DNA of 64,000 nt. It comes from an uncultured Jannaschia sp. (lineage in GTDB: Bacteria; Pseudomonadota; Alphaproteobacteria; Rhodobacterales; Rhodobacteraceae). A program made the translations under genes and the position numbers. The stretch is taken from positions 62,001-126,000 of the forward strand of contig NZ_CANLTQ010000001.1 of the NCBI RefSeq assembly GCF_947494025.1, written 5' to 3'. Shown here piece after piece: positions 36,601 to 39,365 of the stretch (its first letter is position 1; each line of letters begins with the position of its first letter). Under the pieces are notes generated by a model. The model saw only the letters and a program-made list of their open reading frames with translations, ran no database searches and was not told the origin of the DNA.

Positions 36601-36965
36601 TCAAGGACGCCGACAAGGTGCCGCAACTGGTGGAGACGGCGGGCCTCCTCATCGACATGGGCTTCACCATCCTCGCGACCTCCGGCACGGCGGAGTTCCT
36701 CGCCCGCTTCGGCATCGATACGCGGCACGTGAACAAGGCCTACGAGGGCGGCCGCACCATCGTCGACGTGATGAAGGACGGCGAGATCGCGCTGGTGATG
36801 AACACCACCGAGGGCGCCCAGGCCGTCGAGGATTCCCGCTCCATGCGCAACGTCGCGCTGATGGACCGGATCCCGTATTACACGACGCTGGCCGGATCGC
36901 ACGCGGCGGCGCTGGCGATGCAGGCGCGGGACGAGGGGGCGGTGGAGGTGAGGTCGCTGCAGTAG
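33645..36965 (+). CDS. carB: Carbamoyl-phosphate synthase large subunit
   Basis: A 1106-residue CarB that makes carbamoyl phosphate for arginine and pyrimidines using ammonia from CarA. Two homologous ATP-grasp halves are visible: the first begins [21 protein letters not shown] near residue 11 and has [12 protein letters not shown] near residue 180; the second begins [21 protein letters not shown] near residue 578 and has [14 protein letters not shown] near residue 735. The C-terminal allosteric MGS-like domain follows about residue 970. GGGGAG lies eight bases before the ATG. An open frame extends far upstream through cfa but is a high-GC artefact. No carA is adjacent. Confidence 0.97.
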
Positions 36966-37038
36966 GGAGTGCAAGTATCGCCTCCGATGCGACCAATTCC
37001 TCCTCGATCTTGCCCAGAAGGAGGATCATATATCGGCC

Positions 37039-38280
37039 ATGACTATCGACGTGAAACCCGCCATTCTTGTTTGGACACGGGAGACTGCTGGTCTCTCCGT
37101 GGAGGATGCTGCGTCAAAGATTGGCTTGACCACAAGCGCAAAGAGTTCTGCTGCTGAGAAACTCGAAGCGATGGAACGCGGCGAGAAACAACCGACACGC
37201 GGCCAATTAAACAGCATGGCGAAAGTTTACCGCCGCCCATTGCTGACTTTCTACCTTCAAGAGCCGCCGCGCGTAGGACCGTATGGCACAGACTTCCGGC
37301 AAACCCCGGAGAAACGCGGGGCAAAAGCTAATGGCTTGCTGAACGCGCTTCTTCGAGACGTCCGCGCTCGTCAGGAAACCGTGCGAGACATCCTCGAAGA
37401 GGAAGATGACTATAGGCAGTTAGCCTTCGTCGGTTCAGTAAGGATCGAACAGGGCGTGGCAAATGCCGTTCATGCCATCTCTACGACTTTAGGCTTCGAT
37501 CCGACTGCGATTCGGACTGGAAACGCCGATGCGCTCTTCAAGCGGCTCCGAGCGGCAGCAGAAGAAGCTGGTGTTTTTGTGCTGGTCCTAGGCGATCTTG
37601 GAAATCACCATTCCACTGTTGATGCAAGCGTCTTCCGCGGCTTTGCTATCGCTGACGACGTCGCTCCGTTCGTCGTCATTAACGCCAAGGACGCCAAACC
37701 GGCTCGATCATTCACGTTGATCCATGAGCTTGCTCACGTCTTTCTTGGACAGACAGGAGTAAGTGGTACAGTGACTACCGGAGATCCGACCACCCATACA
37801 GCGCGGATCGAACGTTTCTGCAACGATGTCGCTGGAGAGTTACTTCTACCGGGCGACGGCTTTCGAGCGATGAGCGCCGACTTCTCGGCGGATGACGCCT
37901 CGGCCGCTCAGATTGCAATTGAAGCGATTGCAGCCCGGTGGTCGGTTAGCGAACCTATGGTAGCTTACCGACTTCACCGGATAGGACGCGTAACTTCTGA
38001 CGTATATGACGAACTCCGCGCGATCTATCATGTACGCTGGCAGACCAAAGTAGCAAAGGACAACGAAGGCGAGCGGGAGATCAACCAGCACGTTGTGAAG
38101 CAATCTTATCTAGGGAATGCACTTCTCGGACTCGTGCATCGGTATGTACGTGACCATACACTATCGCACACAAAGGCTGCTGCCTTGCTAGGCTCACGTC
38201 CAGCATCCGTCGAGCCGCTCTTGCGGCACTTCGAATCTAATAGAGGCAGATTTGTGGCGGCTAATAGGGCTGCCGTGTAG
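37039..38280 (+). CDS. XRE-HTH / ImmA-IrrE family zinc metallopeptidase
   Basis: A 413-residue two-part protein. Residues about 8-70 form an XRE-like helix-turn-helix region (VEDAASKIGLTT, LEAMERGEKQPTRGQLNSMAKVY), followed by FYLQEPP, the usual linker in this class. The peptidase domain has FTLIHELAHVFLG with zinc ligands H229 and H233 and catalytic E230, then IERFCNDVAGELLLP containing the third ligand region. Such proteins cleave repressors or antitoxins and can regulate their own operons. Base composition drops sharply compared with carB, with many AT-ending codons, indicating horizontal acquisition. The stop TAG shares its G with the next gene's GTG start. Confidence 0.88.
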   Translation: MTIDVKPAILVWTRETAGLSVEDAASKIGLTTSAKSSAAEKLEAMERGEKQPTRGQLNSMAKVYRRPLLTFYLQEPPRVGPYGTDFRQTPEKRGAKANGLLNALLRDVRARQETVRDILEEEDDYRQLAFVGSVRIEQGVANAVHAISTTLGFDPTAIRTGNADALFKRLRAAAEEAGVFVLVLGDLGNHHSTVDASVFRGFAIADDVAPFVVINAKDAKPARSFTLIHELAHVFLGQTGVSGTVTTGDPTTHTARIERFCNDVAGELLLPGDGFRAMSADFSADDASAAQIAIEAIAARWSVSEPMVAYRLHRIGRVTSDVYDELRAIYHVRWQTKVAKDNEGEREINQHVVKQSYLGNALLGLVHRYVRDHTLSHTKAAALLGSRPASVEPLLRHFESNRGRFVAANRAAV

Positions 38281-38777
38281 TGTATCTAATTGATGCAAAC
38301 GTCCTGATTAGTGCAGACGCTCATTTCTACCCCTTAAATCGTATTCCTCAATTCTGGGACTGGCTGATCGATCAAGGGGCGCTCGGAAACGTAAAGATCC
38401 CAGCAGAAATACACGATGAGGTCTCCAGCGGAAAAGGTGCACTTGCCGCTTGGACGAGAGAAGGCGAGGTCAAGAAAGCCCTACTATTAGAGGAGACGCT
38501 CGATCCCGCGCTCGTGAGGCATTGCCTACAAGTTGGCTATCAATCAACAGATCCTAGGTTTACTGACCGTGAACTACAAAAGATTGGCAGAGACGCATTT
38601 TTAGTTGCCTACGGCCTCGCCGGTCCTAACCGAGTAATAGTGACACGAGAGGTATCGAAGCGCACTAAACGGCTGGGTGCGTCAAAGCTACCTGATGCGT
38701 GCGACGATTGCGGAGTTAGGTGGACGTCGGACTTCGAGATGTATCGGATTTTAAATTTTAACTTGAGCGGTCGATAA
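38280..38777 (+). CDS. DUF4411 family PIN-like domain protein
   Basis: A 165-residue protein beginning MYLIDANVLISADAHFYP, the DUF4411/PIN-like N-terminus with the first catalytic-type Asp (D5). Further acidic residues (IHDEVSSG around residue 45, FTDRELQKIGRDAFLVAYGL around residue 97, and D near the C-terminus) fit a PIN nuclease site. It probably acts as a ribonuclease toxin or effector controlled by the upstream HTH-protease. GTG start overlaps the upstream stop by one base (TAGTG), so translation is coupled. The gene is AT-rich like its partner. DUF4411 genes are often found next to ImmA-type genes; the activity here is inferred. Confidence 0.83.
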   Translation: MYLIDANVLISADAHFYPLNRIPQFWDWLIDQGALGNVKIPAEIHDEVSSGKGALAAWTREGEVKKALLLEETLDPALVRHCLQVGYQSTDPRFTDRELQKIGRDAFLVAYGLAGPNRVIVTREVSKRTKRLGASKLPDACDDCGVRWTSDFEMYRILNFNLSGR

Positions 38778-38845
38778 CTCGGTCGTTTAATTAGTAAGTC
38801 CCTATGGTTTAGATTGTACCCGCTCCTCGTTGCCTCAAAGCAAGC

Positions 38846-38914
38846 GTAGGGTGGGTGAAACCCACCGCTTTGTCAGCAGCCAGCCGCGCAACGGTGGGTT
38901 TACACCCACCCTAC
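38846..38914. repeat. 69-bp palindromic repeat element (REP-like) downstream of the island
   Basis: GTAGGGTGGGTGAAACCCAC starts at 38846 and is mirrored by GTGGGTTTACACCCACCCTA ending one base before 38914. The arms are about 22 bases each with a 24-base loop, and each arm is itself partly self-complementary. The form resembles widespread GTAGGGTGGG-type REP elements of many bacterial genomes. It marks the right edge of the AT-rich block. Confidence 0.8.
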
Positions 38915-38978
38915 TTCACCGGACCGCCCCCGTAGGCGTCCTCTCGCCAAACCGACGCGGGATCGAACCCTGCCCGCC

Positions 38979-39365
38979 CTACCTCTTCGACCGCTCGTAC
39001 ATCACGTTGATCACCGAGGCGTCGGGCTTGCGGCTGTCCATCCAGGCCTCGCGGTATTCCTCGGCGAGGTCGTTGCCCTCGATCAGCCCGCCGAGCCGCG
39101 CATGGACGAAGGCGCGCAGGATGTCGTTGATCCGACCGCCCACGTTCGGGCCCATGGAGCGCAGCATCCGCATCACGTCGCGGTCGATGCGCGCCGTGAC
39201 GTGCTCGCGCTCGGGCCGGCGGCTCTCCCAGATCTCCTGCCATTCGGGCGGGATGCGCCCGGCCCGCGCGACCTGCATGTGCATGTCCCATTCGAAGCGC
39301 CGCATCGCCCCGATCATGTCGTTGACATGGCCCTTCTGCGTTTTGCTCAGCTTCTCGCCCGCCAT
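38979..39365 (-). CDS. BrnA-like ribbon-helix-helix antitoxin family protein (no toxin partner)
   Basis: A 128-residue protein. Residues about 55-92 (HVTARIDRDVMRMLRSMGPNVGG, INDILRAFV) match the BrnA-type ribbon-helix-helix DNA-binding core. The N-terminal part is a predicted helix-rich dimerisation region and the tail is acidic-basic. AGGAGAG lies eight bases before the ATG. BrnA normally neutralises the BrnT RNase and autoregulates, but no BrnT-like ORF is adjacent on either side, so this is an orphan regulator or a relic. Three 11-bp direct repeats in its promoter region (39449-39481) may be its operator. Confidence 0.75.
   Translation of the reverse strand: MAGEKLSKTQKGHVNDMIGAMRRFEWDMHMQVARAGRIPPEWQEIWESRRPEREHVTARIDRDVMRMLRSMGPNVGGRINDILRAFVHARLGGLIEGNDLAEEYREAWMDSRKPDASVINVMYERSKR

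Follow-up and report, generated by a model that had tools for sequence, protein, structure and literature searches.

The window, a stretch of 64,000 nucleotides from an uncultured Jannaschia sp., carries a compact two-gene module directly downstream of carB on the plus strand. The carB stop codon, read directly from the sequence at 36963–36965, is followed by a 73-nt leader (36963–37038 together with the stop) in which a GGAGG is present at 37020–37024. Gene 1 (37039–38280, plus strand, ATG start) encodes a 413-aa protein with an HTH, an IrrE/ImmA (M78) metallopeptidase and a C-terminal domain, and gene 2 (38280–38777, plus strand, GTG start) encodes a 165-aa DUF4411 PIN-domain protein. The last base of the TAG stop of gene 1 (38278–38280) is also the first base of the GTG codon that opens gene 2, a one-base overlap that gives the junction TAGTG. 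An AT-rich island after carB ending near 38830, with exactly two genes joined in this way, had been described in an earlier sequence-only reading of this DNA, and both observations were borne out. In a composition scan, the G+C content was 0.66–0.73 (about 0.70) in carB over intervals of 34.0–36.8 kb, fell to 0.50–0.56 across the module (37.0 to 38.8 kb), and was back at 0.65–0.73 in intervals starting at 38.8 kb or later. An imperfect 18-nt inverted repeat (89% complementary) lies just behind the module at 38846–38914; it was rejected as a repeated element after one of its arms, searched as a pattern with at most two mismatches, gave one match in the genome.

Neither reading frame is interrupted, and each retains the residues that family members conserve. 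A scan of 36900–39000 for promoters of the sigma-70-like type, the only type it covered, found none, and expression of the gene pair could come via read-through from carB. No RNA structure beyond chance was detected in the leader (z −0.06), and no common palindrome indicative of a shared operator was seen by eye among 14 family loci. The lack of a sigma-70-like promoter in that interval, together with carriage of the pair by only one of 20 congeneric genomes, would fit an acquired but inert remnant, in which the genes are intact in sequence and either unexpressed or no longer toxic. This is highly improbable in our judgement, given the open frames, the retained family residues and the possible drive from carB.

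The closest characterised counterpart of the module is VapBC52 (Rv2515c/Rv2514c) of Mycobacterium tuberculosis, a pair described in 2026, for which PDB entries 9vzy and 9vzz were deposited for the VapC52 and VapBC52 structures; VapC52 is reported to be a DUF4411 toxin acting as a PIN tRNase (PMC13273310). Gene 2 of the window matches DUF4411 at 3.6e-28 in Pfam. As a single sequence, its best match among the sequences of solved structures is 9vzy_D, a weak one (E 0.005), and the same chain is matched at 1.7e-16 by a toxin family profile built from 49 members. An AlphaFold2 model of the toxin adopts a PIN fold (mean pLDDT 94.0, pTM 0.87). A structural search with this model returned VapC and other PIN proteins, and 9vzy and 9vzz were not among the 50 structural matches listed (library to April 2026). 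Four acidic residues are invariant in 49/49 aligned toxins, namely D5 in the first strand (38292–38294), which is placed like D6 of VapC52, E47 (38418–38420), D105 (38592–38594) and E124 (38649–38651), all encoded on the plus strand; their individual roles we take to be those general to the PIN family, in keeping with the conservation measured here. Thus, the PIN-like nature proposed for this protein in the sequence-only reading is upheld by the Pfam match and the model, and the acidic PIN residues, whose absence had been considered there, are in place. No PADLOC match was found for gene 2 at 0.1. The DUF4411 protein is predicted to be a PIN-fold metal-dependent RNase, probably a tRNase.

Gene 1 matches Peptidase_M78 at 4.2e-17 in Pfam, and its N-terminal HTH (residues 14–66; 37078–37236, plus strand) matches HTH_31 at 1.7e-4 with 22.2 bits, below the cut-off of 27, so the HTH plus HELAH metallopeptidase named in the earlier reading is recovered with the HTH part scoring below threshold. 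Among the sequences of solved structures, 9vzy_A (3e-27) is the sole match with an E value of at most 1 for gene 1 as a single sequence, and the antitoxin family profile (49 members) matches this chain at 1e-48 over its residues 2–388 of 393. The same profile also matches the controller protein C.Csp231I at 2.6e-5 in the HTH region. The family alignments and profiles comprised 49 sequences, the window pair and 48 of 76 listed loci. Across these antitoxins, H229, E230 and H233 of the zinc-binding HELAH motif (residues 229–233; 37723–37737, plus strand) are invariant (49/49), and so are E258, the third zinc ligand by homology, and C261 in the E..CN motif (37810–37821, plus strand). A DFR at residues 85–87 (37291–37299, plus strand) aligns with the DFR of 9vzy_A and is the counterpart of its 'FR' probable self-cleavage motif; R87 is invariant and D85 is conserved at 90% or more in the 49 antitoxins, and in the wider locus set the first two letters of the motif vary.

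The reported VapBC52 complex has a 1:2 stoichiometry, in which one VapB52 chain binds a toxin dimer by its N-terminal domain and its C-terminal domain occludes an active site (PMC13273310). In vitro, VapB52 cleaves itself when triggered by ssDNA, in a reaction that needs the HExxH histidines and frees the N-terminal domain (PMC13273310). Overexpression of VapC52 protected M. smegmatis from phage D29 and co-expression of toxin and antitoxin did not (PMC13273310), so that defence by the intact VapBC52 is not shown in that work. The window pair shares with VapBC52 the antitoxin architecture of HTH, IrrE peptidase and C-terminal domain, the DUF4411 PIN toxin partner and, by alignment with 9vzy_A, the HExxH, the third-ligand Glu and the DFR linker. 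It differs in having Ser242 in place of C229 of VapB52, in the weak similarity of its toxin (E 0.005 for the single sequence), and in residing in a GC-rich genome where it is known here from its genes. Other VapB proteins are reported to be about 8–13 kDa in size and to form 2:2 or 4:4 complexes (PMC13273310), compared with 413 aa for the window antitoxin, which is thus outside the canonical VapBC range. Of the features of the DUF4411/VapBC52 type, the window pair has a DUF4411 PIN toxin with four conserved acids, a large HTH and M78 antitoxin with a C-terminal extension encoded directly upstream, and the zinc and FR linker motifs.

From these data, it is very likely that the module is a laterally acquired type II toxin-antitoxin system of the DUF4411/VapBC52 kind at a carB exchange site, in which a PIN RNase would be held by the HTH-M78 protein and freed by self-cleavage at the DFR upon a danger signal. 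By analogy with the homologue, the HTH-M78 protein would bind the toxin by its N-terminal domain, with its C-terminal domain covering the toxin active site, and it may perhaps also act as the operon repressor. The danger signal could be ssDNA, which acts on the homologue in vitro and for which damage or phage was the proposed source; the peptidase would then cleave the polypeptide of which it is part at the DFR linker, which connects the toxin-binding domain to the peptidase, and the freed toxin would stop growth. Binding, neutralisation, toxicity, tRNA cleavage and DFR self-cleavage are in this scheme what the M. tuberculosis proteins lead us to expect, and cysteine-free gating and an anti-phage function are suggestions that go beyond homology. 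That a DUF4411 PIN-like toxin is held in check by a fused HTH-protease, as the sequence-only reading had suggested for the window, has been found for the homologous VapC52/VapB52 (PMC13273310), and the window proteins match both chains of that complex. The pair adds a member to an established class of systems, and its aspects that merit further work are the exchange site and the serine found where VapB52 has the switch cysteine. A literature search with the word DUF4411 returned, in the text it covered, bench work on one pair only, that from M. tuberculosis.

Operons of this type had been predicted earlier. Makarova et al. (2009) described COG2856-Xre fusions with PIN or RelE partners and named Rv2515c as an example of the fusion (PMC2701414), the same operon type as the window pair. 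Their model was a three-component circuit in which the fusion cuts another repressor, whereas the later VapBC52 structure points to direct neutralisation. Applied to the window, the 2009 proposal would have the HTH-protease act on a repressor or antitoxin encoded elsewhere and free the PIN toxin indirectly; it draws on the suggestion that a fused COG2856-Xre protein cleaves an Xre repressor, maybe the antitoxin (PMC2701414), and on the reported cutting of separate partners by ImmA, PprI and CapP. We regard this as very unlikely here, since there is no third gene in the module, the two-gene pairing is conserved, and the homologues form a solved 1:2 complex. CapP/CapH of CBASS and PprI/DdrO of Deinococcus resemble the module in employing a peptidase of the IrrE family activated by ssDNA (PMC10904395, PMC13273310). 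However, CapP and PprI cut a separate repressor, whereas in the window pair a single polypeptide would combine sensor, protease and presumed substrate, with a PIN toxin as the presumed output. Indeed, the module has no separate HTH gene and its sole partner gene encodes the DUF4411 protein, which places it outside CapPH. In the PADLOC anti-phage library, gene 1 matches RmrA best (7.5e-14), over a best stretch of residues 175–327 of 413 only, and gene 2 is unmatched.

The window antitoxin differs from VapB52 at the residue that is central to the published model of activation. In VapB52, C229, nine residues past the second zinc histidine, was suggested to block the active site for as long as ssDNA is lacking (PMC13273310); the aligned position in the window antitoxin is Ser242 (37762–37764, plus strand). 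Serine is conserved here at 90% or more in the 49 aligned antitoxins. When distinct HExxH-to-Glu stretches were scored by pattern, 136 of 148 fitted, the window included, with Ser in 120, Cys in 5 and other residues in 11; the 12 that did not fit were, by alignment, nine Ser, one Arg, one Phe and one unaligned. Alignment of the loci gave Ser in 76/78 named-genome, 7/7 plasmid, 44/46 viral and 30/44 sampled-genome loci. The cysteine switch is absent from the window antitoxin, and this survey indicates that the residue does not define the family. Any activation by ssDNA would therefore need another mechanism here, perhaps a PprI-like one, and if ssDNA triggers these antitoxins it would mostly not be via a cysteine switch. 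Such another route is known, as Deinococcus PprI is reported to be activated by ssDNA with its overall conformation almost unchanged (PMC10904395). The invariant Cys261 (codon at 37819–37821, in the E..CN motif) is a candidate part of a cysteine-free gating. The roles proposed for it are our assumption, drawn from general knowledge of the IrrE family and from the conservation measured here.

The missing switch cysteine in the window and in most relatives scored would also suit an ordinary labile antitoxin that is degraded by housekeeping proteases, with an M78 domain that has another role, or zinc binding only, rather than serving as the trigger; self-cleavage, moreover, was seen for one member in vitro (PMC13273310). 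This reading appears unlikely to us because H229, E230, H233, E258 and R87 are invariant in 49/49 antitoxins, which fits selection for peptidase activity and for the linker site. The window pair, which lacks the residue underlying the published activation model, offers a direct test of that model beyond VapB52.

A conserved pairing of the two families, for which the earlier reading had recommended a search, was evident in named genomes, where 78 of 80 loci have the peptidase gene directly upstream of the toxin gene and in the same orientation; the gene pairing in the window is therefore not a matter of chance. The set was the best 80 of 250 stretches encoding a toxin relative in one scan, a number that marks the family as common, and the two unpaired loci lie at contig ends (L140 begins 126 nt and L156 2 nt from the end). 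The pair was also found in 7/7 plasmid loci (7 of 32 records in one set), 3/3 further plasmid loci (3 of 30 records in another), 46/46 viral-contig loci and 44/48 sampled-genome loci. These counts are not independent of each other, because the groups overlap (L048 and L090, for instance, score identically) and the viral loci include many near-duplicates. The sampled-genome count covers 48 of 52 loci, after L068, L071, L222 and L223 were dropped for having no match to the toxin profile; L001 is the window itself. Its exceptions are L049, in which an internal stop interrupts the toxin match, L067 and L224, which are near the locus end, and L221; among the 44 paired loci, the partner match in L003 is weak (1.8e-4, none of its residues being scored), and one place is covered by both L219 and L225. 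Distances between toxins and between antitoxins were strongly correlated in a Mantel test (r 0.92, against a maximum of 0.46 in 2000 permutations, n=49), a high value that co-inheritance alone would give.

The ten plasmids examined include conjugative, mobilizable and non-mobilizable ones. On a plasmid of Acetobacter vaccinii (L078:1847–3492), a type I restriction operon holds the pair between its S and R subunit genes, with a gene of the Abi family next to it. The 46 viral-contig loci (L159–L204, IMG/VR), which encode the pair according to an alignment scan, are in many cases likely prophages of isolates. A single-protein scan of viral contigs gave two stretches that fitted the pattern, none of which was confirmed. 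In 50,697 phage records the window toxin had no match; one match to the Gordonia toxin and three partial matches to the window antitoxin were observed in phage records.

Among relatives of the window genome, the family is patchily distributed. Rather than standing at the same site in all relatives, the pair belongs to a family with no representative in the 19 other congeneric genomes, and DUF4411 was found in 3 of 60 relatives, the own genome included, the other two sharing with it the family in one case and the class in the other. In wider sampling it was present in 30/385 genomes of the class and 23/398 of the phylum, the own genome being counted in both. The module is also unusual in composition, as its G+C difference from the flanks is the third largest of 79 loci; family modules have a median difference of −0.027 and are more than 0.05 lower than their flanks in 28 of these 79. 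Measured on the 900 bp of lowest G+C in the 3 kb downstream of carB, the drop is 0.20 in the window, 0.21 in G012 and 0.17 in G001, and it does not exceed 0.10 in any of the remaining 17 of the 20 congeneric genomes.

The sequence-only reading had proposed a comparison with close relatives for an empty site between carB and a BrnA-like gene. The pair is indeed absent at the site in relatives, but the site is not empty in the closest relative compared, G012, where a different A+T-rich module is present. G012 is 95% identical to the window over 2814 bp; the homology is lost two bases past the stop codon of carB and picks up again at 38970, immediately outside the BrnA-like gene on its 3' side. 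The intervening 2.0 kb, mostly with a G+C of 0.43–0.55, contain two overlapping minus-strand genes (L025:2973–4447, at the site corresponding to 36966–38970 of the window) for proteins of 305 aa and 186 aa. The 186-aa protein belongs to DUF6932 (Pfam 4.1e-29) and matches the PADLOC candidate PDC-M63A at 8.3e-11; its 305-aa partner gave a weak match to PDC-M63B (0.005) and has no Pfam family. No description of DUF6932 was found by a literature search with that word. In G001 (L027), a single A+T-rich minus-strand gene directly downstream of carB encodes an HTH protein with a HEIAH motif, which is CapP-like in PADLOC (1.6e-7) and has no Pfam M78 match.

Because G012 and G001 carry other A+T-rich genes at this place, the 3' side of carB appears to be a site at which small A+T-rich genes of a defence-like character are exchanged in the genus, as judged from the small number of three occupied cases; it would offer a modest set, assembled in nature, of such genes replacing one another. 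More speculatively, most of this widespread family, the window pair included, might constitute a one-chain DNA-damage or phage fuse without a cysteine switch, in which ssDNA directly licenses DFR self-cleavage and C261 or Ser242 gates it, with the carB 3' end serving in the genus as a small site at which defence-like modules of this sort replace one another; we put this forward as a tentative and rather doubtful proposal. The BrnA-like neighbour is a real BrnA_antitoxin family gene (38982–39365, minus strand, Pfam 2.9e-8), with the small correction that its place is in the GC-rich sequence that follows the module. Of the 19 other congeneric genomes, 15 have a relative of it (16/20 with the own genome), and in five of these, G012, G014, G001, G010 and G005, such a relative is located within about 2 kb of carB.
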